This document shows positions 1-60,323 of a DNA stretch of 64,000 nucleotides, in pieces (positions within the stretch are counted from its first letter, which is position 1; every line of letters begins with the position of its first letter). The translations under genes were made by a program, and so were the position numbers. Location of the stretch: contig RQOL01000282.1 of assembly GCA_013076295.1 (NCBI GenBank), positions 53,851 through 117,850 on the forward strand. The letters run 5' to 3'. The DNA is from Sanderia malayensis. Its lineage: Eukaryota; Cnidaria; Scyphozoa; Semaeostomeae; Pelagiidae. Under the pieces are notes generated by a model. The model was not told the DNA's origin. It saw nothing but the letters and a program-made list of their open reading frames with translations, and ran no database searches.

Positions 1-2550
1 TACCTCAAGATATTGAGCACGATGAAGTACGCCAATACATCAACGCCCGGTATATTGGACCTCATGAAGCTGTTCATAGAATATTCCAATTTGCCATGCA
101 CGAGAAAAGTCACACTATCAAACGTCTGCATGTTCATCTACCTGATCAGCAGACCGTATACTTTCAGGATAATGGCCGTGTCGAACAATTACAAAACATC
201 AATGAAAAAACCACACTGACGTCTTGGTTTGAATTGAATGCACAAGACCCGGCTGCACGCCAATATCTCTATCACGAGATTCCTGAACACTATGTTTTCA
301 ACGAGCGCACCAAAACATGGAAAGCAAGACAGCGGAGAACACTGCCTGTCATAGGCAGAATATATCAAGTTCACCCACGACCATGTGAGCAAAGGTTCGC
401 ACTGAGACTATTGCTTCTCCATAAACGGGGTGCCACGTCGTTTGAAGATCTTCGTACGATAGAAGGAAACCTATGCAATTCCTTCAAAGACGCTGCTTTA
501 GCTCTAGGTCTGTTGGAAGATGATGCTGAAATCATACGCTGTTTGGAGGAGGCAGTTATTTTCAACATGCCAGTACAACTGAGACAGTTGTTTGCAACAT
601 TACTCCTTTTTCAAACACCTTCAGATATCGCAGCACTCTTCAACATGTTCAAAGAAGCATTGAGTGAAGACTTTGTACGACGTGATCAAGTCAATCATCC
701 GATATGGCCATAGCTTTTGAAGACCGACACATGTATCAATGTCTACATGACATTGACGAAAATTTGAAAGTACATGGTCAATCGATCACTAATTATGCTG
801 ACCTTCCTCAACTTCCAGCCGACTATGTCATTCCTCAACAAGGTACTAATGTGTTATTTTAATATGTACTATTTAGTAAGAATATAATAATGTATCCTAA
901 GATCGTGCAGACAAGGGCATTTACGTATTTTTGCACATTGATTCTCCTAGCTTTCTTTCCAATTTTATTGCAATATATTTCACTTATTATTACAGAGGAA
1001 GATGACATGGATGTTGGCAATGCCAGAGAGGAAGGAGAACGAATGCTGGCCGCATTGAACCCTGAACAGCGAGCCATATACACGGGAATCACTGATGCTA
1101 TCAACGCGCAATCCGAACAGAACTGTCACTTTGTTGACGGGCCGGCTGGAACCGGGAAAACTTTCCTTTACAACACGTTGGTTCACAATCTGCAAGCCAA
1201 TGGACATAAAGTTCAGTGCATGGCGTGGTCAGGAATTGCTGCAACACTGCTCATAAATGGTAGAACTTCACATTCTACCTTTCAAATTCCTATACCACTT
1301 CAAGCTGAATCAACGTGTAATGTCAAGAGACAGAGCAGGAGAGCACAGGTATTGCGCGAAACTACACTATTCATATGGATGAAGCTTCCATGATTCCCGC
1401 ACTTGCATTACAAGCAGTCGACCGACTGCTTCGAGACATTACACATGTCGACAGACCATTTGGTGGCAAGTTCATGCTACTTGGTGGTGACTTCAGACAG
1501 GTTCTACCTGTCGTCACGAAAGCAGGAAGGGAAAGAATTGTAGCAGAGACTCTAAAATCACACCAGATCATTGATCTATGGACAAAGTTTCAGCAGCATC
1601 GTTTACACACCAACATGAGAGCCGTTCAAGATGATTCATACCGTGAATTCTCAGAATGGCTTCTCAGACTTGGCAACAAGCAAGAAGCACACGATGCACT
1701 GGACAACGTAATTCTGCCACAACAGATATGCACTTCGTCTAAAGAAGACATGCTGAACTTTATTTTTCCCAGGCCGAACACACCAGATTCACACCTAATG
1801 ATGGATCCTGTAACAATGTCTGAACGCTGTTGTCTGACTCCAAAGAATGACTTATCGCATCAAGTAAACGACTTAATTCTGGACAGACTTCAAACAGCCG
1901 AAAGAACTTACTACAGCACAGACAGTGTTGTCACAGACGATCCAGATGAGGAAGAGGCCTACCCCATTGAATTTCTCAACCAACTCACTCCGAATGGAAT
2001 GCCGTTGCACAGACTTAAACTCAAGGTAGGAAGAGTACAATATTTCATCCTATTAACATTAAATTATTATGTGCAAAGGTAGTGCACCATAAAAAAGCCG
2101 TCATTAATCACAATAATATTCATTGCATTAGGTTGGTGCAACGATCATTCTTCTGCGGAATCTCAATCCAAAGAAAGGTCTTTGCAACGGAACAAGACTC
2201 ATAGTTCGGCATCTCCGACGTCACGTGATCACAGCAGAGATCATTACGAAGGAGCACAGAGGACAACGGGTCATGATTCCCAAGATCACAGTCTCCACTC
2301 AGGACACGGAAATGCCGTTCAAAATGAAACGCCGACAGTTTCCAGTCAGACTTGCATACTGCTTGACAATCAACAAGGCACAGGGGCAATCCCTGAGGTA
2401 TGTTGGTTTGTACTTACCTGAGCCCGTGTTCACACATGGTCAGTTATATGTGGCCATGTCAAGAGCAACATCATTTAACGGGCTCAAAGTATTCCTCCCA
2501 GAGGAAACACACAGGAAAACAAAAACATTGTTTTCCAAGAAGTCCTGTAA
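1..2550 (+). pseudogene. Helitron Rep-helicase, copy A, C-terminal part, frameshifted
   Basis: This is the C-terminal half of a Helitron transposase (Rep-helicase), whose helicase part unwinds DNA during rolling-circle transposition in the nucleus. Exons by GT/AG and comparison with copies B and C are 1-842, 996-2025 and 2132-2550. Helicase motifs seen: Walker A GPAGTGKT (1139-1162), Walker B region at about 1370-1385, LLGGDFRQVLPVV (motif III), the NKAQGQS segment, and [11 protein letters not shown] (motif VI). A G is missing in the Walker B codon run near 1376, where B reads ..IWDEAS.., so the frame breaks there. A second one-base loss near 2525 destroys the usual Helitron C-terminus. The N-terminal Rep/HUH half lies outside the window. 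Family assignment is certain. Whether the indels are real is not. Confidence 0.95.
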
Positions 2551-5500
2551 AGGCTTCATCCTAGAGCGACCATCTGCACAGTTGCTCTACAGAGGGCTGC
2601 CTACCAAAACGCACATACACACATTCAAGGGTACGGGTATTGTGTGTCAACGCAGATCACGTCGCACATAAGTGTGATGTACAGCCGTTACTGGCACCTT
2701 TCTAGAATGCATTCATTCTAGATAACACTGATCTGCGGAGACCAACTGGACATTACCCCTCCACATGTCCAGGGGTGACTGCACCACACACAGCAGTCGG
2801 CACAGTCCTGAATCCTGCGTAGCGCCCGATTATTAAGAGTTATGCGTTGCCATTTTCTCCGATATTGCCTATGGGAAAGTGGATTTCCTTACTCTGTGAA
2901 AACTGCAAGTTGTCCCTTAAGGATAGTTACTTTTTGCAAAATATCGCACTGTCAATAACATCCCCCCCTCTCCTTTTAATACATGAAAACTTGATCTATA
3001 ATCTATAGAGGTCCCTTTAGTGTTTACTGTTATATACTTCCAAGTTTCAATTGCAGTTTTCACCAACAAGGAAAACTCGAACAAAGGTTACTCCTTGACG
3101 CTGGTGTTCGAGCTTTTCACTAATGTAACCGGCAATCTTATTCTTTTTTTTGCTATGTACAAACGTAATCCTCAAAACAAATGACCGCCGTTATTGAAAG
3201 AATACATTCACACAGTGGCACAGATGTATCTTGCTGAGAGTGAAGTGCTATTCAAGAATCCAATGAGGTACTGTCATTTTGGTAAGCACGTCGCTAAGCC
3301 AATCAATTTTGCAACCTGAACTACGGATTGTGTGGATCAATTTTTATTGATATTGACAATTCACCAATTTGAATAGTAGAGTTTATCATGACTGAACCCT
3401 TCGCATTTTACTTCGCATACAATACAAATATCTATCCACGTCCTTTCAAAACATATCTTTGTACTGTATTGTATATCTTTCAGATCTTCCGCATTAATAA
3501 TAAGGTTTTTAAATTGCGATTTACGTTTTCAATAGTAGATAGCCAGGAGATAGATACTTTATCTTCTCACAGTTTCATTATTGATATATTTGTGTATTTG
3601 TCACATTAAATCTCCATTCAATAATATCATAACAAAATTTATTGATTTCGTTTTTAATTAGATGCATTTCTGCTAAGATCATTGAAACGAGGCGAGACTT
3701 CTGTCTCTCATTTCAAACGCCTTTGTACTGTCTATGTATGATTTTCATCTATGTTATGTCTCATCATCGCACTATTGTTGCCTGTCGGGTCTAAGTTTTT
3801 GTCTCCCAACAAATGGCATCCAGTTGGATTTGGTTGCTGAACTCAATGAAATTATACCTCATAAAGCCTTCCTGGCTTAAAGGAAACAACTACCTTGCTG
3901 TTCACCAAAGGTAAACAAGGTTCATTTTCATTTTGCACAATCAAACAATGGATATTCAGATTTATAACCAATTTGATACTGAAATGAGAGAAAATAAAGC
4001 TCATGTAGATGTATACCCTTATTGACTTAAAGGAGAAAATTAGGCTGCTATGAATCAGAGGTCAACAATGTATATTTTCATTTTCATCCCTTTGAATTTG
4101 ATATGTTGAATGGAAATTGCTTAGCTTAGCCATTTCTACTTTACTCACGGTTTACATATAGTTTGTTAGGCCAGAATTCTGGAAATTTTCCAATGTTTTT
4201 TCAGTACTTTGTTTTCAGAAGAAATGTGCATTGCTCTACCAACATCTTCCTGGGGCTTTTATCTCCGTCAATATAGTTCCTAACCAATTTATTTACTTTG
4301 TGGCTGCCTTCTTTGTTTTACAAGCAAAGCTCATTGATATCCCACATGAACCTGCTTTCTACTTTCTGTTTATTGAACATGTTTAATTGTTGTGATGTAC
4401 ATGAAGGAAACCAGTGAAAGTCAAGTTCAAACCCTGGGAAAAATCCACACTTTATTTGCTTACCACCTTCCTCATTGCACATGCATTGCATATCTCTTTT
4501 GTCTACCACACTCATTAATTTTCTATTTTTTGTACAGATTCATTTAGTTAAAGGCAATGGAAAATTCAATCTATGGTTCAAAATGTTCTCTTCAAATTAT
4601 TTCCCAAGTCAGGTATAATATTCAAGGTATGGGGCTCTCTGTTCCAGATCAATAGATAAATCAATTAATGCACCCTAATTGAAAAGCAAACTGAATAAAT
4701 AAAGGCTGAATACTATTTCTACATTGACTATCACTAAATGTTTCTTAACGAATCACTTACAGTATTCTAATCCTGTAGGTACTTAATTCTTCCTCATTGT
4801 CACTTAATGATATTCCTTATCAGGTAGATGTGTTGTTGTAAACTCAGTGTGCCAGGCACAGATGACAATGATTTCACAACCATTACAACACAAGATTTTC
4901 AAATTTATTGGCAAGCATACATTGTATCAATCACTGATACAATCCTCCATTACACTGGACAAAACAAGCTAAGATGGCTCTTACCACACAAGCAAACATT
5001 ATTAATGCATTTTAATAATCTATATGTGCATAAATATCTCTTTGTTATCTTACTTCAATATTGAAAGTCTTGCATGATAAATTATGATGTATAGTGTATG
5101 GTATCTCCTCATTCATTCACTGTGGGACAGTGCCTGACAAAGTATTTCTGTTTTTTTTAGTCGGCAACATTCTCATTGTATATATCACTGACACTTGCTT
5201 GCATTTATATTTTATGAAGCTTTTTCATATGTTCACCTCTTATCTCTTCACATAGCAAAACGATGAATTTGAATGTTGTTCTTGCATCTGTACTAATTAT
5301 GTCCACCAAATGCCAATTTAAAATTAAACAACTTTTAGAACTACAAAGTGGTCAAAGAGATCTCAAAATAACGAACTTAAACAATTAGGCCCTCAGCAGC
5401 TAGGTTCCTTATAAAAAGAAGCGTGTATTCTCATCGCAATTGTAATTTGTAATTCTAATAGTTATCGCATAATTCCAAGTTTTCTTGCTCTTGAAACTAC

Positions 5501-5584
5501 AATCACAATACGATCAATGCAACACCACGTAATGTCCTGGAGCTAATACTATTATCATCAGATATTCACGGGAATTTCGGCGTC
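2551..5584 (+). other. Helitron A 3' flank of Rep-helicase (module D)
   Basis: AT-rich, with no convincing long ORF. It matches 32723-35820 of B, and parts match 52354-54600 of C. An exon-like segment ends in CAAAG followed by gtaa near 3910. Another lies between ..tgtacag at about 4539 and ..tcag/gtataat at about 4613; it is open in A but carries a stop in B. The segment around 4080-4330 resembles 7850-8100 farther right, so this module appears twice per element. A minus-strand GT donor at about 5231 marks the start of the next promoter module. Confidence 0.5.
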
Positions 5585-5884
5585 CTAGCAACAACAATTG
5601 CGGCGCGAAATTTAAAATTTGTCTGCGTCATAGAGGACTTAGCGTGCGTAAAATTTTTTTCAACTCACCACGAGAAAAACAGCAATTTACTTAAGTACAT
5701 GTATTTTTAATGTTGCTTTCACTTTCACATGAAAATACAGGCTATTTATAACTAAACAGCTTTAAAAAAGCTCAAAGTGCTATGTTTTATGTCACAATTG
5801 CCATTGCAGTGGATATTATCACAATAACAATTTTATCTTTAACAGGTTCACTTGAAATAGATAATTTTCGCGAATACTGCTGCC
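5585..5884 (+). promoter_or_regulatory. Promoter and 5' untranslated exon of small gene A
   Basis: A GGCGCGAAA site (5602-5610) matches the E2F consensus on the minus strand. It is followed by an AT run that is shared with the equivalent places in B and C. A short exon, 5846-5884 (39 nt), sits between an ..aacag acceptor and a gtaagt donor. The same 39-nt exon exists at 37300-37338 in B. The coding exon begins after a tatatag acceptor at 6110-6111. Transcription start and E2F use are inferred, not shown. Confidence 0.5.
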
Positions 5885-6118
5885 GTAAGTTCATGTATTC
5901 AGTTCTGCATTATCTGCCTGCCTTTAGTCTTTCCTCTTCATTGTAAGAAAGATAATTATTATTATTCATTATCTGCAGAAAATGAAAGTCTGTCATATTA
6001 ATACATTAAAAGTATATATTATTGTAACATCAACAGAACTGTACAGGCAAATTCAAACAACTCATAGCCTATTAAGTCCCTTACATTGACTGACAATATA
6101 TTTATATATAGTGCAAAA

Positions 6119-6782
6119 ATGGATACAGACCACGAAGTTCCCACGAATGATGAAACTGCAACAGTTGTGGATGAAGTTGTCGATGAAGTTGTCGATGAAG
6201 TTGCGGACACTGTGCAAAAGGATCATACAATGATTCACTGTGGCAAGGAAGTGGAGGTAACATTACAAAATACTTCCATCCCTATATTGATAAACTTAAT
6301 AAATGTTGTGAACACCAACGTTATCCAACTGCCTTACAAGGGAACACAATTGTATCCTACCTTTTAACAATATCAAGTCACTCTTCTAAATTCATCATGC
6401 CCTATTTGTCGTAGCTTTTCAAATTCAAAGATATCTCTTCACTGAAAAGAGAGTGTGCAAATAAATTCATTGCAATCAAAAAAGAAACAAAATTCAATTT
6501 TGTGAGCCTCCAGGGAAGGCACCTCACTAAGAATGAAATAGAGTAAGTTGCAATGCTAAATACCTATCTCATTCTTGCGTAAAACATGTTGCTCACTTTC
6601 AACTCTTTTTCAAACAATGTATTCTTTCCTACAGGACATGTGAGGAAATAAAAATTAAAATTCTTGATAAAAAAAGAATAAAAAAGGATAAAAAAGAAAA
6701 TAAGAAAAGCAAACAAAAAAGATCGCAGGCAACACCCGATGCATGTGGGCACATGTGCCCACAGAAGAAATCATATCTTTAG
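6119..6782 (+). pseudogene. Helitron-associated small three-exon gene, copy A (late frameshift)
   Basis: I do not recognise the family. Coding exons: 6119-6256 (from ATG), 6415-6542 and 6635-6782, all with GT/AG borders identical in position to copy B. Exon 1 encodes an acidic stretch with an expanded in-frame VVDE repeat (a 12-bp tandem repeat near 6168-6205). Exon 2 encodes the conserved core, including SSLKREC and TKFNFVSLQGRHLT. Exon 3 starts with a very Lys-rich segment that may be a nuclear localisation signal. Relative to B, one base is gained or lost near 6732. The conserved C-terminal MW-x-x-VPTEE segment is therefore still encoded, but in another frame (through 6800), and the written frame stops at 6782. 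The partner copies are intact in B and C. Confidence 0.65.
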
Positions 6783-7660
6783 TTAGGGGAATTGACAAAT
6801 GATTGTACCTGCTACTGTTTTAATGTTTCTCTTTTGTTGCTTTTCTTTTCATGTTTGTAAATTTTCTTAAATAGTTAAAATGTGTAGTTCACTAGAAATT
6901 ATTAAATAATAATTTATAATAATATTAATAATAAGAAAATGATAACAGACTCTCACCTTTGAAAAACCATGCACTTTGCCAAAAATATTTATCACAAAAA
7001 TACCTTTCAACTCTTCTTACACGCGATTTGACACAAGCCCTACAAATTTGCAGGAAATGTATCTCAAAAACACGTCTTTATAAATGAACTGGCCTTTCGG
7101 ATGCGTAGATGGCCTTTCGGATGCGTAATGATCTCCTATAATTCAATACATACCTGAAGAACAGTCAAAAATTGCCTCCATTGAAATCGCACCGCACAAA
7201 TCCCATATGAACAGAGTAGCACAGACAGTACCCAAAATGGACGAATAGAACATGTAATAGAAACTAAAAAGAACAGAATCTTATATCATTTTCCAGTACA
7301 GACAATGTATCTTATCTCTAACATCCGTTTTTCTTAAATGTGGCCTATTCTCAAGGGATTTCGTCAAATACTATATTTCCTAAACTCTTATACGCTACCA
7401 AAATGAATGAAAGCCTTGACAAAAATGCTACAGATTTATTTTAAAGATGTATCTTGAAAGATCGCAATGATATAATACGATCTGGAAAAACTTACTTACC
7501 ATCGCCAGTGACCCAGTCAGAGAAAGAAAAGATGAAAGGAAGGACGCACTGGCAGCATGTTCTTGTTCACTTGAGTTCTCTTGGGTCACGTTCATTATTA
7601 GCCAATCCACTTCAATCAGATCATTACGTTAAGACGAGGCTGCATAACAACATGATTTTT
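6783..7660 (-). other. Minus-strand spliced exon remnants (module U) right of small gene A
   Basis: On the minus strand there is a 37-codon open exon at 7500-7610 that begins with ATG and ends at a gtaagtaag donor. Two further donor-like sites sit at about 7153 and 6955. Donor order and spacing resemble those at 42655/42395/42145 in C and at 38885/38543/38400 in B. This looks like a decayed gene convergent with the small gene. No protein family is recognised. A direct 20-bp duplication (ggcctttcggatgcgta..) lies at 7091-7128 and is absent from B. Confidence 0.35.
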
Positions 7661-8930
7661 GTATGATTTTGATTTATCTTATTTTTTGTCAACGTAGCAA
7701 TTTTTCACGCTGGTGGTTGTGCTGTCCCAATAATCGTTTGCCAAATCTTGGATCGCAACGGAACTTGATGCTGAAAAAGAGAAAGTAAACCTGACAGAAA
7801 CATTCATTTTTCCCCAGCTCAGGGGTAAGTAGAGTTTATTTTTAGTTTCACCCCATTCAAGTTCCCATATAATTGCTTAGGCCAATTGTATTTCACTCAT
7901 TGTTAACATACCTATAGTTTTCTTGACGCCAAAATTGACAACTCCGCTTATATTTCATGGCTTTTTATATTTAATGTTTTGGGAAAGAATGTTTAATGCT
8001 GTACCCACATGTTCCAGTGGCTTTAATTTGGTTATAATATTTTTGTTCACGATTCTCTTCAATTTGTGGCTGCCTTCCTTGCCAAGCCTAATACTCCTAT
8101 GAAACTCCTTTCACCATGCAATTCCCATCCCATTGATGATGATTATGAAGTACTTTTGCATTGGTTATCCACGGTGTCCGGTCCGATGCTTATCCTTATG
8201 TTCTATATGATTGAAACTAATGCAAAACCAATCCCAGCCGTGGAAATCTTTGTATACTTGATTTAATTTAATAAAGCTTTTTCGTGGCAATTGCATTACA
8301 TGATCTGTTTTGTCTGTAATGTCATACTGTAATGTCATGTCATACTGATCAATATTCATTTCTTTATTTCTTTTCATATTGACATACATTAAATCAACAT
8401 CAAAGGAAAATTAAACTCCACAGATTCTCCACATCCAAATCCAATAATTTTTTACCCTTGATAGTAATATACCAACATGTTAAGTGGAATATAGTTTTGT
8501 CTCTTTCACTTTGTAGATCTACTCATTTACATCAATACACAAATGCAAGTATTGGAGGCTTCATACCTAATGCTTTATCAAAAATCAATGCATCAGTGTC
8601 ATCTCATCATGGAAACAACACTATACCTCTGTAAGTGAACATAATTTAAATTCTGGATGCTCATCACAGATCATCCTTTACTGTTATATTAGCTTCACAA
8701 AGGACACAGCCAAGTGTCAATGCATGCACTCAACTAATAGCAGACTAATTGTTGTTGTCCCTACAACATAACAAACTTTGATCTTGCATCTTATATACTG
8801 TACCATCAGTACGAGGCTTACCTGATGAAAACGAGGATTTTGAAATGAAAACGAGGCTGATCACTAAACTAATTTCCATGCATGTTAAACATTACAATCG
8901 TGACAATAGATAGACAGGGGAGCGAGGGCA
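7661..8930 (+). other. Second 3' module (D') of Helitron A with a conserved exon
   Basis: AT-rich, and homologous to 39100-40300 in B. One exon candidate, 8517-8630 (114 nt, between ..tttgtag and gtaagtg), is open in one frame for 38 codons and contains NASIGG. The same-length exon in B (39885-39998) is open in the same frame. Of 38 codons about 12 differ, mostly by amino-acid changes, so I see no strong sign of purifying selection. The gene it belonged to is unrecognised. The rest of the module shows nothing further. Confidence 0.35.
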
Positions 8931-9061
8931 GCCAAACCACTGTACGTGGGGTGGCAAATGGGCATGAGCGTTAGCGAATGCAGCGCACGAAGTGCGCAAC
9001 CACATTAACTTTTTTACTTGAGGGACTCCGGGAAGCGAGCGTAGCGAGCGCCCCCGGCTAG
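8931..9061 (+). repeat. Helitron A 3' terminal block: hairpins and CTAG end
   Basis: The block contains a perfect hairpin GCGCAC-GAA-GTGCGC near 8979. A second stem, CCGGG..CCCGG, encloses the GCGAGCGTAGCGAGCG direct repeat. CTAG follows immediately (9058-9061). Helitrons characteristically end in a GC-rich hairpin near CTRR. The same block closes B, C, X1-X5, X8 and, in modified form, X9. Confidence 0.85.
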
Positions 9062-9108
9062 TCTATATAACTATTAAATCTACGATCACACGTGACCCGC
9101 CGACTGTG

Positions 9109-9156
9109 AACAATGGCTATTGTCTTTTGAACAATCGACGTTCGACCAAACAATGG
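9109..9156 (+). promoter_or_regulatory. Iteron-like AACAAT repeats at the X1 5' end
   Basis: AACAATGG (9109-9116), AACAATCG (9130-9137) and AACAATGG (9149-9156) are spaced 21 and 19 bp apart. TTCGACC-type spacers lie between them, and the first repeat is 47 bp from the 5' terminus. The arrangement is kept in the divergent elements X9 and X10. Rep-binding iterons are an inference. SOX-type sites are the alternative reading. Confidence 0.45.
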
Positions 9157-10050
9157 GATCAAAGGAATCGTTGTATCAAAGGCTTTTTTTCTGGGGGTCA
9201 ATAAGGGTGCAAATGGTATAAAATGATCGCTGCATTGTGCTGATGAACTAAAGCTTTCCGCTAATTTCTAACCCCAGCGGTTCGAGAGTTATGGCCATTT
9301 TGTGTTCCGACCTTCTAGAAAGTTCCGAGGACGGAGTTAATGAGATGCAAACGAGCAGGGAGAAGCACGTGTTTTTTCGGTTGAACGGGCGGCAAGTTGC
9401 TCGGTTTAAACGTGAATACGTGCCGGAAATCATTGTAAAAGACGTGTCAATTGTTGTCAAGACCTGTGGAGACAATTGGTGAACAATTATTTCAAGGTAT
9501 TTCCTTTATTCAATTGTTTTTGGCTTTAAATAGCACGAGTTTGTTTTGTTTCAACCTCACGTTTTTCTTTCGGCTCGAGGGCCTAACCAAACACGAAGAC
9601 AATTTTTGATTTTCTCGGGTCGTTCTGGGCCGATTTTCTCCATTTAAACTTTCGATAACTCTTTATTTACACCAAGAACTAAAGTTATATGGCTTTGTTT
9701 TTTTTTTTTTGTGATTTTCCTCTGATTTTGGACAGTTTTGGCCGAGTTTGGGTTTTGCTGGAAAACACGAAATTTTCAAGAACACGCGTGTGTTTTGCAT
9801 TTGCGAAAATTATTTTTAACCTGCCAAAACTTTGTTTTTTCACCCAAATACTTTCGATAAATGTTCGCACAAGCTATTAGCTTCATTTTGATATTTTCGT
9901 GGGTTCTGTAGCACGAAAATTCGCCACGTTAATTTAATTTGAAAGTTTTAGTGTTTTTAAAGTACGTTGATGAATTCATTTTTCACTTTCAGAAGAAAGC
10001 TTTTAGGGGGGCGGCAGGGGGCGCTGGATGGTCGCTGCCAGGAATATGGG

Positions 10051-10640
10051 GTATGTATGGTAGGGGTATGTATGGTAGGGTATGTATTGTAGGGTATGTA
10101 TTGTAGGGTATGTATTGTAGGGTATGTATAGTAGGGTATGTATTGTAGGTATGTATTGTAGGTATTTATTGTAGGGTATTATTGTAGGTATGTATTGTAG
10201 GTATGTATTGTAAGGTATTATTGTAGGGTATGTATTGTAGGGTATGTATTGTAGGGTATGTATTGTAGGGTATGTATTGTAGGGTATGTATTGTAGGGTA
10301 TGTATGTAGGGTATGTATTGTAGGGTATGTAATGTAGGGTATAGTATGTAGGGTATGTATTGTAGGGTATGTATTGTAGGGTATTATGTAGGTATGTATT
10401 GTAGGGTATCTATTGTAGGGTAGGTATTGTAGGGTATGTAATGTAGGGTATGTATTGTAGGGTATGTATTGTAGGGTATGTAATGTAGGTATGTAATGTA
10501 GGGTATAGTATGTAGGGTATGTATTGTAGGGTATGTTTGGGGTATGCATTGTAGGGTTGTTATGTAGGGTATGTATTGTTGGGTATGTATTGTAGGTATG
10601 TATTGTAGGGTATGTATTGTAGGGTATGTATGTATGTATG
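10051..10640 (+). repeat. 14-bp minisatellite (GTAGGGTATGTATT)n, X1
   Basis: Degenerate tandem 14-mer with many units missing one G. It then grades into (TATG)n before the first hairpin block. The long minus-strand reading frames through it are repeat artefacts. Confidence 0.95.
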
Positions 10641-11075
10641 TATGTATGGGCATGAGCGGCAGCGAATGCAGCGCGCGAAGCGCGCCAACCAGATTAAGCT
10701 TGTTTAATTGACGGGCTCCGGGAGGGAGCGAAGCGACGAACCCGGCCCATGTATGTATGTATGTATGTAGTGTATGTATGTAGGGCATGAGCGGTAGCGA
10801 ATGCAGCGTGCGAAGCGCGCCAACCAGATTAAGTTTTGTTTACTTGACGGGCTCCGGGGAGGGAGCGAAGCGACCGAACCCGGCCCATGTATGTATGTAT
10901 GTATGTAGGGTATGTATGTAGGGTATATGTAGGGTATGTATGTAGGGTATGTATGTATGTATGTATGTATGTATGGGCATGAGCGGAGCGAAGGCAGCGC
11001 GCGAACGCGCCAGCCACATTAAGCTTTTCTACTTGATGGGCTCCGGGGAGGGAGCGTAGCGACCGGCCCCGCTAG

Positions 11076-14000: not shown

Positions 14001-14108
14001 TGGGCATGAGCGGGAGCGAATGCAGCGCGCGAAGCGCGCCAACCACATTAAGCTTTTGTTGCTTGGGGGGCTCCGGGGAGGGAGCGTAGCGACCGGGCCC
14101 CCGGCTAG
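11076..14108 (+). mobile_element. Non-autonomous Helitron X2
   Basis: 3.0-kb element starting directly after CTAG of X1. Its first TC has been lost, so it begins tatatactattctacg. It has the same 5' motifs as X1, then about 1.2 kb of AT-rich sequence and a GC-rich patch (12421-12475). A long minisatellite follows (12512-13908), then one hairpin-block fragment (13911-13940), (TATG)n and the terminal block ending CTAG at 14105-14108. No gene is seen. Confidence 0.85.
12512..13908 (+). repeat. 14-bp minisatellite, X2
   Basis: About 100 units of GTAGGGTATGTATT with variants (GTATCG, GTTATG, GTATTT). Runs of the same variant order recur, for example the GTATGTAGGGTATGTTATG block near 13345 and 13610, which points to higher-order duplication. 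Confidence 0.95.
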
Positions 14109-42010: not shown

Positions 42011-42057
42011 TTAATGTTAATATGTAATGCTTCTATTTCTAACTTTTGTAAATCTTC

Positions 42058-45955: not shown

Positions 45956-46219
45956 GTAGGTGATAAGATAAAGTGCTCCAATATTTTTATTTGGAAACTT
46001 TAAATAACCAATAATTTAATTCAACAGTCAAGAGTAATTCCAAACATTTCTTACAATTATGTTCTAAATTATTTATTTTATCTTGCAGCTCACCACAAAA
46101 CAACAAACCCATCCAGTTGCTCACAAAAATCACTCTTATTTCAAATTTTAACATTTTCAATTCAATTGGGTTGCATATAAAACACATTTTTTTCTTTTTT
46201 TTATATCACCTCTTGCAAA

Positions 46220-49200: not shown

Positions 49201-52200
49201 ATTGAATTTCAAAAGAGAGGACTACCACATGCTCACATGATTCTGTTCCTGTCTGAGGCTGATAGACCACGAACACCCGAAGAGGTAACATCTACAACAA
49301 TAATTTATATATAGAATTAGGAATATAATTATCAGTTGTATTGCTTAGTATAAACACAATCCATTTGAAACTGTAAAACTTACATATGCTATTTTTCTTC
49401 GAAACCTACAGGTAGATCGAATCATATCAGCTGAAATTCCAGACCCACAGGATGCAAAATATCACAGGTTAGTATTGAAGCACATGACACATGGTCCATG
49501 TGGTGATATAAACCCCGATGTGTTTGCATGGAGAATAACAAATGCAAGAAACGATTTCCGAAAGATCGCACTGCCGAAACACAAGTCAATGCGAATGGTT
49601 ATCCACTCTACAGACGACGCTGTCGTCACCCAGTCAATCTGAAGATCGACTTCTAGATGATACATGGGTTGTGCCACATAATCGCCATCTTCTACTCAAG
49701 TATCAGTGTCACATTAATCTCGAAATATGCAGCACCGTCAAGTCCGTCAAATATATTTTCAAGTATATCCATAAAGGGCAAGACATGGCACACGTTGAAA
49801 TTCTTCAAGGACAACAGCAACAAGTACCTCAAGATATTGAGCACGATGAAGTACGCCAATACATCAACGCTCGGTATATTGGACCACATGAAGCTGTTCA
49901 CAGGATATTTCAATTTTCCATGCACGAGAAAAGTCACACTATCAAACGTCTGCATGTTCATCTACCTGATCAGCAGACCGTATACTTTCAGGATAATGGT
50001 CGGGTTGAGCAATTACAAAACATCAATGAAAAAACCACACTGACGTCTTGGTTTGAATTGAATGCACAAGACCCGGCTGCACGCCAATATCTTATCACGA
50101 ATTCCTGAACACTATGTTTTCAACGACGCACCAAAACATGGAAAGCAAGACAGCGGAGAACACTGCCTGTCATAGGCAGAATATATCAAGTTCACCCACG
50201 ACCATGTGAGCAAAGATTCGCACTCAGACTATTGCTTCTCCATAAACGAGGTGCCACGTCGTTTGAAGATCTTCGCACGATAGAAGGAAACCTATGCAAT
50301 TCTTCAAAGACGCAGCTTTAGCTCTAGGTTGTTGGAAGACGATGCTGAAATCATACGCTGTTTGGAGGAGGCAGTTATTTTCAACATGCCAATACAACTC
50401 AGACAGTTGTTTGCAACATTACTTCTTTTTCAGACACCTTCAGATATCGCAGCACTCTTCAACAGGTTCAAAGAAGCATTGAGTGAAGACTTTGTACGAC
50501 GTGATCAACTCAATCATCCAGATATGGCCATAGCTTTTGAAGACCGACATATGTATCAATGTCTACATGACATTGACGAAAATTTGAAAGTACATGGTCA
50601 ATCGATCACTAATTATACTCACCTTCCTCAACTTCCAGCCGATATGTCATTCCTGAACAAGGTACTATATGTGTTATTTTCAACTATGTACTGTATTAGT
50701 AAGAATAATAATTTATCCTAAGATCGTGTAGATAAGGGCATTTACGTATTTTTGGACATTGTTTCTGCTGGCTTTCTTTCCAATTTTATTGCAATATATT
50801 TGACTTATTATTACAGAGGAAGATCACATCGATGTTGCCAATGCCAGAGAGGAAGGAGAACGAATGCTGGCCGCATTGAACCCTGAACAGCAAGCCATAT
50901 AACGGCAATCACTGAGGCTATCAACGCGCAATCGAACAGACTGTCACTTTGTTGACGGGCCGGCTGGAACTGGGAAAACTTTCCTTTACAACACGTTGGT
51001 TCACAATCTGCAAGCCAATGGACATAAAGTTCAGTGCATGGCGTGGTCAGGAATTGCTGCAACACTGCTCATAAATGGTAGAACTTCACATTCTACCTTT
51101 CAAATTCCTATACCACTTCAAGCTGAATCATCGTGTAATGTCAAGAGACAGAGCCGGAGAGCACAGGTATTGCGCGAAACTACCCTTTTCATATGGGATG
51201 AAGCTTCCATGATTCCCGCACTTGCATTACAAGCAGTCGACCGACTGCTTCGAGACATTACACATGTCGACAGACCATTTGGTGGCAAGTTCATGCTACT
51301 TGGTGGTGACTTCAGACAAGTTCTACCTGTCGTCACAAAAGCAGGAAGGGAAAGAATTGTAGCAGAGACTCTAAAATCACACCAGATCATTGATCTATGG
51401 ACAAAGTTTCAGCAGCATCGCTTACACACCAATATGAGAGCCGTTCAAGATGATTCATACCGTGAATTCTCAGAATGGCTTCTCAGACTTGGCAACAAGC
51501 AAGAAGCACACGATGCACTGGACAATGTAATTCTGCCACAAGAGATATGCACTTCATCTCAAGAAGACATGCTCAACTTCATTTTCCCAGGCCAAACACA
51601 CCAGATTCACACCTAATGATGGATCCTGTAACAATGTCTGAACGCTGTTGTTGACTCCAAAGAATGACTTATCACATCAAGTCAACCACATAATTCTGGA
51701 CAGACTTCAGACAGCCGAAAGAACTTATTACAGCACAGACAGTGTTGTCACAGACGATCCGATGAGGAAGAGGCCTACCCCATTGAATTTCTCAACCAAC
51801 TCACTCCTAATGGAATGCGTTGCACAGACTTAAACTCAAGGTAGGAAGTACAATCTTTCATCCTTTACATTAATTATTATGTGCAAGGTGGTGCACCATA
51901 AAAAGCGTCATTAATCACATAATATTCATTGCATTAGGTTGGTGCAACGATCATTCTTCTGCGGAATCTCATCCAAAGAAAGGTCTTTGCAACGGTACAA
52001 GACTCATAGTTCGGCATCTCCGACATCACGTGATCACAGCAGAGATCATTACAAAGGAGCACAGAGGACAAGGGTCATGATTCCTAAGATCACAGTCTCC
52101 ACTCAGGACACGGAAATGCCGTTCAGAATGAAACGACGACAATTCCAGTAAGACTTGCATACTGCCTAACAATCAATAAGGCACAAGGACAATCTCTCAG

Positions 52201-52353
52201 GTTGTTGGTCTGTATTTGCCACAGCCCGTTTTCACACATGGTCAATTATATGTTGCCATGTCCAGGGCTACGTCATTTGCTGGCATCAAAGTCTTCCTTC
52301 CTGAGAATGCACACAGGCAGACAAAGAACATTGTCTTCCAAGAAGTCCTTTAA
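46220..52353 (+). pseudogene. Helitron Rep-helicase, copy C, full length, many single-base deletions
   Basis: Same gene as copy B. Exons: 46089-46563 (ATG at 46220), 46700-46822, 47027-47149, 47320-47842, 48102-49284, 49412-50661, 50817-51840, 51938-52353. This copy keeps the start codon, HUH motif LPHAH (49228-49236) and both catalytic tyrosines (Y-IFK-Y, 49752-49766). Walker A is at 50957-50980 and WDEASMIP follows. The C-terminus still ends ..VFQEVL and TAA (52351-52353). Damage: TGA at 46289 (CGA in B), -1 near 46425, -1 near 48685, then at least fifteen one-base deletions between 49516 and 52140. The abrupt onset of deletions suggests sequence error rather than decay, so the true state is uncertain. 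Confidence 0.95.
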
Positions 52354-54600
52354 GTCTCTCCTCCTCTCCTATACACCATGGTGCTTTTCATTTGTACACC
52401 AGGCTACCAACCTACACAAAATATAACCACTAAGGGTGTGACTGTTGTGTTTCAAGGCAGATCGCATCACACACATACAAGTGTGTGGTGTCCAGTTGTG
52501 TAAAACACAACTAACCAGCTACCAGCAAAGCCGTAAAAAGCCGAGCACTGGTTTGAATGTCTCATTCCAGCCAAGCAGTATCTGCCGTGAGCAACTGAAA
52601 ACATCAATGAAAAGATGTTCAGTAGCGGTTGCAACCACTTTCCGCAATCGGCACATCGTCATTCCTGTGTAGAGCCTGAAAATCAGGAGTTATGCTTTGC
52701 CATGTTTTCCGATCTTGCCTATGACAACATGGTTTTCCTTCCTCCATGAAAACTGCAAGTTCTCCGTTAGCAATAGTTGCTTAAAAAATTATGAATTTGT
52801 GAATAAGATTATTTACCACCCATTACAACATGAAATACTTAACCTCGCAGATAAAGCCCACCCTTTAAAGATTACTCTTACATAATCCAAATTGAACTTG
52901 CACTTTTCATGAAAAAGGAAATCTCGAACAAAGGTTACTCCTTGACGTGGTGTTCGGGCTTTTAACTAATGTAACCGGCAATCTGATTCTTCTCCTTTCT
53001 ATGTACACAACTGACAACTGCGCATTTCTTGCACAGTGCTCTATACCTTTAAAATATATATGTCTAATATATATGTCTTCGTACAATAATACCCTCAATG
53101 AAATTCATGTGCACATTGTTTATTCTTCTACAAATATTTAATGAGATAAATTTCTGCATTTTTAATTATCCAATAGCAGGAGGTTTTGCTGCATTGAAAC
53201 GAGGCGATTGTATAAGCTTTCATTTCACAAAAGAACGTTGCCTTACTTTGATCAATGCATGGGCATTTTAAAAAAGTCGGCGCCTTTTGAAAAGTCTGTT
53301 TCGCAATCGCAGACCTTCCATGGCTAAAGAACAATTGTTTAAAAAGGACAAATTACAGGTGTGAGGATATTGCAAAACCTACAAACACGTTACCGTTGAT
53401 CTCAAACAAAGGTAAATAGCCTTCATTGTTATTTCAACTGCCGAGCCGAGCTTGCTAAATCACATTGATCACTTTGCTTAGGCCAGTTCACTCTCGCTGA
53501 ATGCTCGGAGTAAAATCAGGTTTTCCAATCAGATTCTCAATTTAGCTTTAATACTAAAGAACAAGTATTTAATGTTGTACTCAAATCTACCTGTCATATT
53601 TTTCTTTACAGCTGCTTTTTCTTCATTGCAATTGCAGTCCTCTTGGGTATATATTTGCAAAATGATTTATTTGTTATAAAAAGCATTGACTGAACCATGA
53701 GGGAACATGGAGCCAAATGTTACATAACATCTTCTGACAGTATCAGGTATGAAGTTCTTAATAGCACATGATCACATATATTCATACATTTTCCAACCAT
53801 TACACCACAGAGTCATTCAATTTTGGAATTTACATGAAATGAAAATGTCCCATCTTCATGATTTTTATTAAACCTGTCAATCAGCAAATTATTCAAAGAT
53901 GCTAATTGCTATCCAACGAGCACTCATACAATGACAACTAAACCAATGGAACATCTAACTTGCATGATTTTCTTCAATTCAAGTTATACCTGAATTCCTG
54001 ATAATTTTTCACTTTTATCTTTGAGCATAATATTTCAAGAAAACTAATAAATCTATTTTTTCCCCATTTTTAGTTTCATTCCATTTCCTGTTTGGCAGAT
54101 TTAAATCAATTTGTGGAGTCAGGTAATTCCTAACCTCATTAATTTGTTAAATCTTACCATGAGTTTCTGAACTTTGGTTTCCTCATACAGCACCATTAAG
54201 TAGCAAATATCCACTCTATCAAATTTGTTACTTGCCTTGCCTTCCCATCGAATCAGATATATTGGACCGATCAGCCAAACACACTTTTGTTTTACAAAAT
54301 TACCATTTGCTCCTTCCAATAGCCAAACCAAGTGTTCCTCCATCATCTATAATGTTTTTTTTATTTAATATCCATCACAACCAACACATAGCACAAACCT
54401 TCCTGGTGGCAGCAACAACTAATTATGCCTAAATATGTTATGCAATATGTTATCACAGGCCAATTGCCATCATATGACCCAATGCATCCAAGGATGCAGC
54501 CATATCATCAGTACGAGACTTATCTCATGAGAACGAGGATTTTAAGACGAAAACGAGGCTGGTCGCTAAAACTAATTTCCATGCATGTTAAACACTACTA
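52354..54600 (+). other. Helitron C 3' module (D)
   Basis: Diverged relative of A 2551-5000 and 7661-8900. Shared anchors are the aggagttatgc..gttttccgatcttgcc segment near 52690 (A about 2840), a CAAAG/gtaaat exon end near 53410, and the cgaggct repeats near 54530-54560. A segment near 53600-53750 ends at a tcag/gtatga donor. No long ORF or recognisable protein is seen. The region holds only one 3' module, where A and B hold two. Confidence 0.4.
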
Positions 54601-54609
54601 TCGTGACCA

Positions 54610-54765
54610 TAGATAGACAGGGGAGCGAGGGCGAGCCAAACCACTGTACGTGGGGTGGGAAAGGGCATGAGCGGAGCGAATGCAGCGCACGAAGTGCGCC
54701 AACCACATTAAACTTTTTGTACTTGACGGGCTCCGGGAAGCGAGCATAGCGAGCGCCCCCGGCTA
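54610..54765 (+). repeat. Helitron C 3' terminal block
   Basis: Hairpin block with GCGCAC-GAA-GTGCGC near 54685, then CCGGG..CCCGG and CTA. The final G of CTAG is missing and TCTCTAC follows directly. Confidence 0.75.
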
Positions 54766-56674
54766 TCTCTACATATATATAATATCTGAGGGTAACGGAA
54801 CCCACGGTCAAAGACCCCCAGCGCCGGCAGCTTTCGCACGATACTCCTAAAAATCCCCCGATAAGTTCTTTTCGAAAACCACTCACAATTCTTCCCACTA
54901 ATGTGTATGTGTGCATAAGCTATTTTGTTTTTCGAAATTCGTTTTCGTTTTCCACATATTTTCACTTTTCTCCCTCGAAAATTCTTCCGCCCTTTGTTTT
55001 CGTTTCATGTTTGCTTTGTGTACTTTGTCACATGCTGCTGTGCCGAGGCTTTTGTTTTGCGTGCGAGGGGAGATGTCCCGAGCTTCCTCGCCTACTAAAG
55101 CATTGAGTCGAACAAAACCTGTTGTGCCACGCGACCCCCGTGGCTAAATGCATTCGAAATGACGTCGTGCTTCTGGAAAGGTCGATCGTGCGTTGTTTAC
55201 CGTTTTCGAAACAATCAATCCCTGTTGCGTTTGACACTAATCCCATTGCGTCTTTTGTTACTGAGACCTTTGATTGACGAGGAAGTTCCTTCCTTCCTTG
55301 AGCGAACGTGCAGTGGATGTCCATTTTCGAATTTGGGACGGGACAAACCGAATGAAATTGCTTTCGTTGTGTTGCTGCGTTTTATTTTTGATGCCGTTTT
55401 ACTCGAGATTTCCAACTAAAAGCTTCTCGGAAATTGACTGGTAAGTTGCTAAGTTGTTTCCATTTGCCTCTACTAAACTCCTCTGTGTCCTTCTTATTTT
55501 GTTTTCGATTTATTATGATCCGTTGTTTACAGAACTTTCTGGGCGATCTAAATTCTGAATAATTTTTTGCTTTACGAATCTTTTGCGTACTAAATCGAAT
55601 ACTAAAACCGTGAATTGTCAATAATAACAGGTCTGGATGCGAGGATCTAAAGAACGAATTTCAGAAACGGCAGTTTCGTGATTTCACTGAAACGAAGCCA
55701 TTCAAAGCACACGCAGTTGTCTAAAAAGCTATTCTGCCCTTCCTTCCAATCAACTGGAATTTTACTTCCAGCTTGCTATTCAGAACTGTTTCCCAAAGAA
55801 CTTCACTGGTAAGTGGCTAAGTTTTTTTCTATATTTCCCCCTCAGTTGTATTGTTTTATTCAGCTCAGATTCCGTGATCAACAACTCGCTTTTCAAATTT
55901 CTCCAGCCGTGCAATATATTTTCAAAATTTCACTCATATTCTCTACAAATTGACTCTGATTTGTTTCAGAGAGCTCTGATCGATGAATACTAAAATTCTA
56001 AATCGATTTTTGCAGATTTGGTTGTGACATTCTAACTGGCCAGACTCGAAAACACATATTTTCATATTGCATTGAAGCACGGCGTGCTGAGAAGCATGCA
56101 AATCCCCGAAACGCTTTCTCCTTGGCATCCAGAGAACTGTTCACGACTGGCCATCCCAAGGCTAAAGTAGTGGATTTCAAGCGCGTCATTTTCGTTCTGC
56201 ATAACATAGACGTGTGCTCAAGCTGGAAACAATTGCTTCCACTTCACGTGGATTCTAAACTGGAAAAGTGCCCACCACTGAGCTACAATTCAAAATGCCA
56301 AAGTTGTGCATTTGGTCTGTGAAATATGTGAGTGAATCAACTAAAAATTTTCATGATCTGTTGTATTTGAAACCTTTTTATATATCGTGAATTTTTGACT
56401 GCGTGTTTAGATGCATCTAACTTTGGGACCCCTCTAAAATTTTCACAATGCGCTTTTGTATTGCTTTCATGGAATTCGTGTAGCTGCAAATATGTTTTTA
56501 CCAATTTGATCTGTATTTTTAATATTCTGTATTTTCTAATCGAAATTTCGCATTAAATGGATCCAATTGTGTTTTCTGATATACTATTCAATCGCAACGC
56601 TTCTCTCCGTTCGGTTTAAATCGAGACGTTTCTGGCACGCTCAGAAGTGCACGAACATTTGCATCGCGGAAAAA

Positions 56675-57120
56675 ATGGACCTGGAACAACATTCGAATGG
56701 AATGCAACCTTTCAACTTCCATGGGGGAAAAGATGGAAATACGAGGATCAGAATCATTTCAAATAAAATCATGGGAGAAAACATGGACCCAGAACAACCT
56801 TGGAATGGAAGCTGGGATCGCGGATCCCATGGACCATGCTGTGGGGCAATGGATGCAACTTTGAAAATTTGAATGATTTCAAGTTAAGTCATAGGAGAAA
56901 ACATGGACCTGAAACAACCTTGGAATGCAAGTCGGAACTCGGGGATTCCATGGACCATGTGGTCGGGGAATGGTTCTAACTATGACGACTTCAAGGATTT
57001 CAATTTAAGTCATCATGCACCTGGAACAACCTTGGAATGGAAATGGGGACTCGGGGATTCCATTGATCATATGGTGGGGAATGGATGGCAGTATGAGGAC
57101 ATCAATGATTTCAAACAAAA
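56675..57120 (+). repeat. About 115-bp tandem repeat, four diverged units
   Basis: Units start near 56675, 56783, 56903 and 57018 with a catggacctggaacaacctt-like sequence. They include a cggggattccatggacc segment and end gatttcaa. Short open frames cross it. No gene assigned. Confidence 0.75.
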
Positions 57121-57130
57121 TTCTTTTTCT

Positions 57131-57275
57131 TTGCGTGTCCCACCACTGATCTTATCGCAAACTAGGCAACTTTAATTACAACTGATTGCTTAACGTGTCC
57201 GCCAGCTGATCTCATCCCAACTTAATCAACTTTAATTAGAACGGATTGCTTAACGTGTCCGCCGCTGCGGGATGG
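57131..57275 (+). repeat. About 60-bp direct repeats at the right end of Y
   Basis: cgtgtccc/gccagctgatct..attgcttaa occurs twice, followed by a partial third copy that ends in ccgc-t-gcgg just before the X8 5' end. Confidence 0.65.
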
Positions 57276-59494
57276 TCTCTATTATATAATCTACGTCGAC
57301 ACGTGACCGGTCGACTGTGAACAATGGGCTATTGTTTGGTGAACAATCGACGTTCGACCGAACAATGGGATCAAAGGAATTTCCTTGTATCCATAAAGGC
57401 TTTTTTTTTGGAGGTCAATAAGGGTGGAAATGGGTATAGAAATGATCGCTGCATTGTGCTGATGACAGTAAAGCTTTCCGCTAATTTCTAACCCCAGCGG
57501 TTCGGGATTTTGTGTTCCGACCTTCTAGAAAGTTCCGAGGACCGAGTTAATGAGATGCAAAACGAGCAGGGAGAAGCACGTGCTTTTTTAGTTGAACGGG
57601 CGGCAAGTTGCTCGGGTTTAAACGTGAATACGTGCCGGAAATCAATTGTAAAGACGTGTCAATTGTTGTGAAGACCTGTGGAGACAATTGGTGGACAATT
57701 ATTGCAAGGTATTTCCTTTATTCGATTGTTTTTGGCTTTAAATAGCACGAGTTTTGTTTTGTTTCAACTCACGTTTTTCTTTCGGCTTGAGGGCCTAACC
57801 AAAACACGAAGACAATTTTGATTTTCTCGGGTCGTTCTGGGCCGATTTTCTCCATTTAAACTTTCGATAACTGTTTATTTACACGAGAACTAAAGTTATA
57901 TGGCTTTGTTTTTTTTGTTTTGTTGATTTTCCTCTGTTTTTGGACAGTTTTAGCCGAGTTTGGATTTTGCTGAAAAACACGAAATTTTCAAGCAACACGC
58001 GTGTGTTTTGCATTTGCGAAAATTAATTTTTAACCTGCCAAAACTTTGTTTTTTTCACCCAAGTACTTTCGATAAATGTTCGCCAAGCTATTAGCTTCAT
58101 GTTGATATTTTCGTGGGGTGTGTAGGACAAAAATTGGCCACGCTAATTGAATTTGAAAGTTGGTGAATCGTGTTTTAAATGCTACTTTTTTCAGGGGTTT
58201 GATTTCACGGCTATTTTTGATCAACAAAATCATGTCTTGGACTTCAAAAATGTACAACTAAAATTGCGAAAAGCATTTCGTATGCACCCAAGTACTTTCG
58301 ATACATATTCGCCAAGGTATTAGCTTCATGTTGATGTAATTTGAGTTCAAATGGACCAATTTTGACCAAGTTAGGGGGAATTTTGTGTTTTTAAAGTTGG
58401 CTGATTAATAAATTTTTCCACGGCTTTTGTGTTGGGTTGCACTAAATACTCTCTTAAAATTCAAAACAAAACTGTTAAGAAATGTGAATATATTTATTGG
58501 ATTCGCTGTTTCCTTAGCTACAGTTTGATATATTTTTTATTAGAGATTGAGTTTAAATTTTCCAGGATTGATTAAATTTTTGAAAGCAACTTTTTTTTCA
58601 AACTTCACACTGAAGCTATCAACCTTCGGCTTTCAGGGGGGCGGCAGGGTGGGCGCTGGGCGGTCGATTGCCAGGGGGAAGATCCGACCTCCCACCTTTA
58701 CTTTCTTTAGAAATGTTGCGTCGTAGTATGTATTGTAGGGTATGTATTGTAGGGTATTTATTGTAGGGTATGTATTGTATGGTATTTATTGTAGGGTATG
58801 TTATGTAGGGTTTGTATTGTAGGGTACGTATTGTAGGGTATGTTATGTAGGGTATGTATTGTAGGGTATGTATTGTAAGGTATGTATTGTAGGGTATGTA
58901 TTGTAGGGCATTTATTGTAGGGTATGTATTGTAGGGTATGTTATGTAGGGTATGTGTTGTAGGGTATGTATTGTAGGGTATGTATTGTAAGGTATGTATT
59001 GTAGGGTATGTATTGTAGGGTATGTATTGTAGGGTATTTATTGTAGGATTTGTATTGTAGGATATGTATTGTAGGGTATGTATTGTAGGGTATGTATTGT
59101 AAGGTATGTATTGTAGGGTATGTATTGTAGGGTTTGTATGTATGTATCGGCATGAGCGGCAGCGAATGCAGCGCGTGAAGCGTGCCAACTAGATTAAGCT
59201 TTGTCTACTTGACGGGCTCCGGGGAGGGAGCGAAGCGACCGAACCCGGCCCATGTATGTATGTATGTATGTATGTATGTATGTATGTATGTATGTATGTA
59301 TGTATGTATGCATGTATGTATGTAGGTATGTAGGTATGTATGTAGGTATGTATGTATGTAGGTATGTATGTATGTATGTATGTATGTATGGGCATGAGCG
59401 GGAGCGATGCAGCGCGCGAAGCACGCCAACCACATTAAACTTTTGTTGCTTGGGGGCTCCGGGGAGGGAGCGTAGCGACCGGGCCCCCGGCTAG
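57276..59494 (+). mobile_element. Non-autonomous Helitron X8
   Basis: 2.2-kb element from TCTCTATTATATAATCTACG to CTAG (59491-59494). It contains an E-box (CACGTGACC), three AACAAT repeats, AT-rich middle, GC-rich patch (58631-58690), minisatellite (58724-59145), a hairpin block, (TATG)n (59251-59390) and the terminal block. It is close to X1-X5. No gene. Confidence 0.88.
58724..59390 (+). repeat. Minisatellite and (TATG)n tracts, X8
   Basis: About 30 units of the 14-mer, a hairpin block (59149-59250, with a GCGCGT-GAA-GCGTGC stem) and an interrupted (TATG)n. Confidence 0.93.
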
Positions 59495-60323
59495 TCTAAT
59501 ATATATATTCTACGGAGTCACGTGATGACGCACTTTCCTTGCCAAAAACAATAGATTCGACCCGAAACAATAGGTCGAACGCCCCAAAACAATGGGCCGA
59601 AATGGCGAACGAGGTATCCATAAAGGCTTTTTTGTGAGGCCCTTAATCTGCCCTATTTTTAAGTGAGCTGTTCCTTGCCGGCTGAACCAGAAAGTTATCT
59701 ATATGAGAGCTTACAGTTTCGACTAAAAGGTTAGGAAATTCCTCGTTAAAGTTCGCCTAATTGGCTATCACAAAAAAACTACAGTTTACGGTGGCGAAAA
59801 TTCCAAATTTGCGTTGCGAACTCCATTTTCGAACCACATATTCGCTGTTCACGTGACCAGTTTCGCCTTTTGCAGCAAGTTGATTGGCTCTTTTGCGACT
59901 TCACGAGAACAGTTGCGATGCTTAGGCCTAATGTAAACATGCCCAAAGTTTTAATCAACAAATTATGATAAGGGATTATCAGGCGAGCCAAGCTGTTGTA
60001 AAAGGAGTAGGCAGAGGCATGAGCATAAGCATATGCAGCACACAATGTGCGCCCTATCAGTCAATGCTTTTTGATAATGGGTAGACAGGCGAGCGCAGCG
60101 AGCTAACCCATTGTATGTGAGCTTGACAGGGGCATGAGCGTAAGCGAAAGCAGCGCACAAAGTGCACCAACCACAGGCGAGCGTAGCGAGCTAGCCCATG
60201 GTACGTGGGGTCGAAAGAGGCATGAGCGTAAGGGAATGCAGCGCACGAAGTGCGCCAACCACAGTAAGTTTTTTTCACTTGCCCCCCTCCGGGAAGGGAG
60301 CGAACGCAAGCGCCCCCGGTTAG
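59495..60323 (+). mobile_element. Compact non-autonomous Helitron X9, 829 bp, second subfamily
   Basis: It starts TCTAATATATATATTC after the X8 CTAG and ends with the GC-rich stem and TTAG (60320-60323), a CTRR variant. The 5' end has TCACGTGA and AACAATAG/AACAATAG/AACAATGG at 59547, 59566 and 59588. The 3' half holds three diverged hairpin blocks (about 60018, 60130 and 60220). The middle is unrelated to X1-X8, so this is a separate subfamily sharing only the termini. No gene. Confidence 0.8.
59547..59595 (+). promoter_or_regulatory. Iteron-like AACAAT repeats at the X9 5' end
   Basis: Three copies spaced 19 and 22 bp apart, 52 bp from the terminus, with ttcgaccc and ggtcgaac between them. 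The arrangement matches X1 although the surrounding sequence does not. Confidence 0.45.

Follow-up and report, generated by a model that had tools for sequence, protein, structure and literature searches.

Helitrons in the stretch of DNA analysed here (the window, 64 kb long, which is the final part of the 117,850-bp contig C202) are joined head to tail, and such arrays were probably built unit by unit, in the same orientation, by autonomous and non-autonomous copies, most of which inserted with base precision next to the terminus of a Helitron already in place. This view is based on single units with exact ends, on the many different partners beside which they are found, and on the array state of about 90% of strictly matched ends. 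From the present positions of the copies, we infer a preference of the family for its own ends. Across the genome, end-to-end stacking looks like the usual state of the family, and not like a local oddity or an assembly join.

Structure of the array

The joints of the window were read directly, letter by letter. A previous sequence-only reading had listed nine of them, all of which are present, and seven are letter-perfect as CTAG|TCT, with the exact sequence ...CCCCCGGCTAG|TCT at 9061/9062, 14108/14109, 18005/18006, 20547/20548, 23287/23288, 40436/40437, and 59494/59495. The remaining two had been described as lacking one or two bases. This is correct for 54765/54766, where the G of CTAG is absent (CTA|TCT), and incorrect for 11075/11076, where four bases are gone; there the CTAG is intact (the 3' end reads CCCCGCTAG) and the following unit begins TATATACTATT in place of TCTATATATACTATT. 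An additional joint is present at 57275/57276, where TCTCTATTATATAATCTACG directly follows GGGATGG and CTAG is absent. The seven letters CTAGTCT were rejected as evidence in themselves, since their occurrence in the window is near chance (7 found versus 3.6 expected, with at least 7 in 10 of 100 shuffles), and longer patterns were adopted.

The stack extends leftward past the start of the window, with joints at C202:35893, C202:38317, and C202:44494 in the 20 kb more of the contig that were read, and its right edge is at window position 60323 (CGGTTAG|T). In these 84 kb, a stretch chosen for holding an array, 12 of 14 3' ends directly abut the start of another unit; among those 12 starts, the one at window position 54766 is without the usual CACGTGACC box. 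Unit lengths in the window range from 829 to 17,149 bp, and every unit of the stack is on the + strand, in agreement with the single orientation reported earlier.

The first unit (1..9061) is the right half of an autonomous-type Helitron that ends in CTAG and measures 18.4 kb as a whole (C202:44495-62911). It carries a PIF1 helicase at 1375-2082, and the same copy has an HUH motif at C202:53213. Non-autonomous Helitrons follow at 9062..11075 (2.0 kb, with a 14-bp minisatellite in the centre), 11076..14108 (3.0 kb, with a 5' end lacking TCTA), 14109..18005 (3.9 kb), 18006..20547 (2.5 kb), and 20548..23287 (2.7 kb); the 5' 800 bp of the last differ by at most 0.9% from another sampled copy, the minimum among the window units. 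The autonomous-type Helitron at 23288..40436 (17.1 kb) contains pieces of Rep and PIF1 helicase in frames broken by introns and/or breaks. Its Rep (Helitron_like_N, PF14214) consists of two open pieces at 29101..29742 (E 2.8e-23 and 6.3e-14), the second with the HUH motif EFQKRGLPHAHMILFL at 29539, and the PIF1 helicase (PF05970) and Pif1 2B/C-terminal pieces are at 30876..32722 (E 3.4e-55 and 2.4e-11). Another autonomous-type Helitron (40437..54765, 14.3 kb) has an HUH motif at 49219 and ends in CTAG minus its last base. The divergent unit at 54766..57275 starts with TCTCTACATATATAT, contains 121-bp and 60-bp repeats, and has neither a CACGTGACC box near its start nor CTAG at its right end; we are unsure whether it is a Helitron. 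It is followed by a non-autonomous Helitron of the TCTCTATTATATAATCTACG 5' type (57276..59494, 2.2 kb) and by the last unit (59495..60323, 829 bp), a member of the divergent TCTAATATATATATTCTACGGAG subfamily that ends in CGGTTAG and then T, with no Helitron start recognised beyond.

Autonomous-type and non-autonomous units had been described as mixed, and the units of 14-18 kb do alternate with units of 2-4 kb. Two subfamilies had been recognised in the mixture, and the 5' ends of the mixed units belong to more than two types. The first 850-1000 bp or so and the last 100 bp or so of the short units are shared with the long ones, and between these common ends the short units contain the 14-bp minisatellite and ATGT runs. 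The minisatellite, GTATGTATTGTAGG, is present in about 10-155 copies inside most short units (window positions 10049-24678, 41499-42004, and 58726-59139) and coincides with a strong G-over-C skew on the + strand. To the right of the stack, an ORF with DUF6589 (PF20231, E 1.9e-12) is located at window positions 61393-62004; its best relative is 67% identical over the whole length, and its search matches are in mixed eukaryotes. Window position 63804 is a Helitron-like 3' end in the opposite direction, after which no Helitron start was recognised.

Helitron identity of the units

The assignment of the units to Helitrons is confirmed by the Helitron_like_N, HUH, and PIF1 domains and by the TC...CTAG ends. 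Both the Rep nuclease and the PIF1-type helicase that define a canonical Helitron were found, in interrupted frames, with the E-values given above for PF14214 and PF05970. In a scan for the HUH motif, four of the long units in C202 and C303 were found to carry GLPHAH. The 5' TC and 3' CTRR termini are represented by TCT...CTAG in most units, with TGTCTT, TATATAC, CTA, CGAG, and TTAG as departures. Stems were predicted in all four 3' ends that were folded, no stronger than those of shuffled sequence (z -0.82 to +0.35). Helicase searches gave matches in mixed eukaryotes, and a search for relatives in viral contigs gave no match.

The bases that flank the ends were compared genome-wide. G precedes 209 of 235 strict 5' ends (89%), and the 26 others are preceded by A (22) or T (4) and never by C. 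Twelve of these 26 loci were examined, every one with A, and they comprise five slightly changed joints, four clear host flanks, one contig end, and two other short sequences. The next base is T in 577 of the 583 strict 3' ends, including 48 of the 54 that are not followed by TCT. Both sets of flanks are compatible with entry between a host A and T, as expected of canonical Helitrons, which leave no target duplication. The four clear non-Helitron right flanks came from a pattern that demanded T; the outer ends found without this demand, at window positions 60323 and 63804, are both followed by T. Inside arrays, the base pair at the joint is G|T.

Genome-wide distribution of joints

The sequence-only reading proposed a search of the genome for CTAG joints, and in 184 Mb (918 contigs) this search identified arrays well beyond the window. 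The longer joint motif CCCCCGGCTAGTCTMTAT, with up to two mismatches, occurs at 955 places versus 2 for a reversed control; some small contigs look redundant, so genome counts may be inflated. Loci L058 and L059, for instance, are 99.5% alike. Exact matching, with strict end patterns that favour young copies, recovered 583 3' ends, of which 529 (91%) are immediately followed by TCT. Forty strict 3' ends are followed by T and then a base other than C. Among the 16 of these that were examined, 11 run into an altered Helitron 5' end (one past a 46-base insert), one into a reversed divergent element, and four into other DNA; because of these 11 cases, 91% is a low estimate for strict 3' ends. Among 86 of the strict 3' ends, consecutive ones are on one strand in 49 of 50 pairs.

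A second stack was read at C303:5284555-5328856, inside a 5.9-Mb contig, where eight units of 2.2 to 17.1 kb are joined. It starts after a host A (...CATCAA|TCT), and all eight 3' ends directly abut the next unit in this stretch, which was also chosen for holding an array; one joint has CGAG instead of CTAG. The stack then meets the divergent subfamily that closes the window stack, the two copies being 73% alike over 436 bp.

A subtelomeric location was considered, since many matches are near the ends of small contigs, and was rejected, as many such contigs are only 24-45 kb long and arrays are also present inside C45 (1.8 Mb) and C303. In the 56-kb contig C136, TTAGGG arrays at 27214-27496 and from 37130 onward face each other, with an N run after the first. 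To the left of the first, which was the one telomere-like array read, 1.5 kb of sequence contain no Helitron end, and to its right is N.

Partners and origin of the arrays

To compare partners, 30 joints were sampled among the loci of the 955-place motif search, taken from the first contigs in order and mostly from small ones. All 30 differ in their partner pair, and in none of the 435 pairwise comparisons do both sides reach 94% similarity. A comparison of 73 3' ends, in which one place occurs twice, gave 28 pairs with a common copy to the left, to the right, or on both sides of the joint; 17 of them match on a single side, seven on both, and four are intermediate. Where the left copy is shared (97.7-99.5% alike), identity ends 1-8 bases past CTAG in 12 of 14 pairs, and 69 and 92 bases past it in the other two. 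One copy in three of the 12 pairs is locus L069, whose right flank does not begin a Helitron. Three pairs have the right copy in common, and to the left of the joint they stay identical over 0, 12, and 52 bases; the 52-base stretch falls in conserved 3' sequence. All these pairs are drawn from a small number of young groups, so they are not independent of each other. Since near-identical copies have different neighbours, or in the case of L069 other DNA, the units look as if they move singly with exact ends. Directly after CTAG, L055 and L066 contain an identical 46-base snap-back (5' end letters plus their reverse complement) between two Helitrons, and the copies to the right of it are about 9% different.

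Rolling-circle concatemers, in which replication overruns the 3' end and lays copies in a row that later diverge and exchange content, had been suggested alongside repeated insertion. We consider them an unlikely main source, as C303 neighbours are not closer and near-identical copies have different right neighbours; repeated insertion is the mechanism that agrees with the different partners and exact stops. A concatemer joins a copy to itself, and read-through had been expected to leave neighbours youngest together. This expectation failed in C303, where the 800-bp 5' regions of neighbours are as distant as those of non-neighbours (0.083 in 7 pairs versus 0.078 in 21). In C202 the mean divergence is 26% for neighbours and 30% for non-neighbours, dominated by three divergent units. 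Even the closest neighbours are 3.9% (C303) and 3.6% (C202) apart, and autonomous-type units of 14-18 kb alternate with units of 2-4 kb. In two of the pairs of near-identical left copies, the different right neighbours are of one subfamily and 93-94% alike. Consecutive strict 3' ends, between which altered-end units may intervene, are of the same type in 23 of 49 pairs versus 18.6 expected (p 0.12), based on 86 of 100 listed matches (of 583) after exclusion of seven C45 tandem ends and seven single-end contigs. The initial impression that the window is not simple local copying of one unit is upheld.

In favour of concatemer formation, C45 has seven 3' ends spaced 4.2-4.3 kb apart. The one period that was read (4,303 bp) is a composite, with 2,268 bp from the divergent subfamily and 2,035 bp from the common type. 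Around it, alignments of adjoining copies match at 247 of 247 positions in one case and, with 12 gap columns, at 534 of 545 in the other. As would be expected from read-through, damage is seen at the inner 3' end, that of the divergent part (CCCCCAG in place of CCCCCGGCTAG), and the array fits read-through past this end followed by tandem amplification of the composite. This tandem composite of two Helitron subfamilies is locus L077 (C45:1351700-1356800). In addition, two loci of a single contig, L023 and L024, are separated by 5.3 kb and share their right-hand copy at 99.5%, and the circles of Helraiser, a reconstructed bat Helitron, have exact CTAG|TC joins (PMC4778049, in the part of the paper available to us).

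Less likely still, segmental duplication and unequal exchange may have distributed a few ancient arrays while new insertions were rare. The damaged joint CTAG|TATATATAC recurs in C31, C92, C125, and twice in C147, with right sides at least 99% alike; the left sides are 98.7-99.5% alike in four copies, whereas the C31 copy reaches about 95%. Both flanks are likewise shared by L062 and L071. A few of the small contigs may be merely redundant. Evidence against such spreading comes from the 30 different partner pairs among 30 sampled joints and from the 14 pairs with a common left copy, 12 of which lose their similarity no more than 8 bases from the joint and not at a random point. The two C147 occurrences (C147:5674 and C147:31085; L060 and L061) are 25.4 kb apart and about 99% alike on both sides, and are possibly a higher-order repeat.

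Homologous recombination of Helitron circles into residents, which would import a CTAG|TC join without target choice, is disfavoured and has a marginally lower probability than segmental duplication. It would account for the single orientation and the exact joins, and the common 5' and 3' regions provide homology; however, it expects a copy's own 5' region to the right of each 3' end, and left copies that are 97.7-99.5% alike mostly meet other 5' types or other DNA. Finally, an assembly artefact that joined unrelated Helitron reads at their common ends is very improbable even though many arrays are on contigs of 24-130 kb typical of unresolved repeats, as joints with unit-specific sequence on both sides are also found within C45 (1.8 Mb) and C303 (5.9 Mb).

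Side of entry and proposed mechanism

Insertion at the end of a resident Helitron can occur on either side of the joint. The sequence-only reading placed it in the T after CTAG; insertion at Helitron ends is supported, while a G^T site is not established, because entry at A^T (a host A and the first T of the resident) yields the same joint. The same choice was described for a maize pair, in which the newcomer used either the canonical AT, made up of a host A and the first base of the resident, or a non-canonical GT behind the CTAG of the resident (Du et al. 2008, PMC2267711). Age tests did not separate the two entries.

The left-edge version predicts that unit age rises from left to right. Age was estimated crudely, from how far each unit is from its closest relative in a sample of 58 or 59 sequences, and no age order was detected along the eight C303 units (Spearman +0.55, p 0.16) or in C202 (Spearman -0.11, p 0.80), where eight of the twelve units were used and the divergent and leftmost ones set aside. 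First units with a host flank (four) are also no younger than inner units of the a type (23; p 0.73), so that the left-edge version is unsupported. Searches for an empty joint, with one unit absent, gave none among the candidates scored, the best being 95% over the full join (40 of 2,358 scored) and, in another search, 96% over part of the join (40 of 2,170 scored). Nested A^T insertion into the AT run of a resident was rejected as an explanation, since left remnants (6 places) and right remnants (13 places) were never found in the same contig; in terms of ends, these are 13 truncated and 6 doubled 5' ends, with no contig having both.

For insertion at resident ends, a mechanism can be outlined in which RepHel would recognise its own termini and nick at A^TC and CTAG^T. 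Once joined there, a circle intermediate would produce CTAG|TC from either side of entry. A host A followed by the TCTATATATACTATT of a resident would present A^T with AT-rich sequence to the right, and each left-edge insertion would recreate this A^T target, making it a self-renewing landing pad. Besides insertion, a minor contribution would come from tandem amplification and from replication that runs through a damaged 3' end. More tentatively, and with slightly less than an even chance in our estimation, self-targeting may be near-obligate, so that the family's own ends are its main site, each insertion remakes the site, arrays grow in the same direction, and host genes are spared. It would then be the only sequence-specific Helitron known to us. 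Such a transposon, if the proposal is true, could multiply with little harm to the host and build satellite-like blocks.

Comparison with known Helitrons

Published systems are compared here as described in the parts of the sources available to us. Helraiser/Helibat resembles the present family in its TC...CTAG ends, A|T target, RepHel, and circles with a CTAG|TC join (PMC4778049). Nearly all of the 1,751 mapped Helraiser insertions in human cells are at AT dinucleotides, and the element prefers AT with AT-rich surroundings, most of all in the sequence next to the transposon's 3' end (PMC4778049). By analogy, a resident 5' end after a host A may offer a Helraiser-type target. No description of self-stacking of Helraiser was found in the available part of that paper.

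Exact end-to-end joints are known from the Helitrons of Myotis lucifugus (Pritham and Feschotte 2007, cited in PMC2267711, PMC5148889, and PMC5876387), which were read as rolling-circle tandem repeats, whereas neighbours are unlike each other here. Plant centromeric Helitrons likewise form long tandem arrays, of up to several hundred repeats, although of truncated units, many with several 5' ends and a single 3' end (Xiong et al. 2016, via PMC12628747 and PMC5148889). In contrast, the units described here are mostly two-ended, differ in content, and occur at several places along Mb contigs, and 12 of 14 3' ends in C202 and 8 of 8 in C303 directly abut another unit, which sets them apart from truncated centromeric tandems. 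For three tandem Helitrons in Metarhizium, insertion at the 5' end of another Helitron or a rolling-circle origin was considered (Chellapan et al. 2016, PMC5148889); those elements are non-canonical and Helitron2-like, and represent a single case. Among open-licence papers, no family was found reported as living mainly in mixed stacks of full-ended units. Head-to-tail joints are already known from maize, bats, and plant centromeres, and it is the mixed, near-exclusive arrays that look new.

Another close counterpart is the maize r1 pair (Du et al. 2008, PMC2267711), in which CTAG is directly followed by TC, a G/T joint replaces A/T, and unlike neighbours indicate consecutive insertions, with the same AT-or-GT ambiguity of order. 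Maize has one such pair, whereas here about 90% of the strictly matched family ends genome-wide are so joined, in arrays of many units. The maize pair left open both the choice between rolling-circle replication and consecutive insertion and the side of entry, and the hundreds of joints between unlike partners in the present genome make both questions answerable by sequence comparison.
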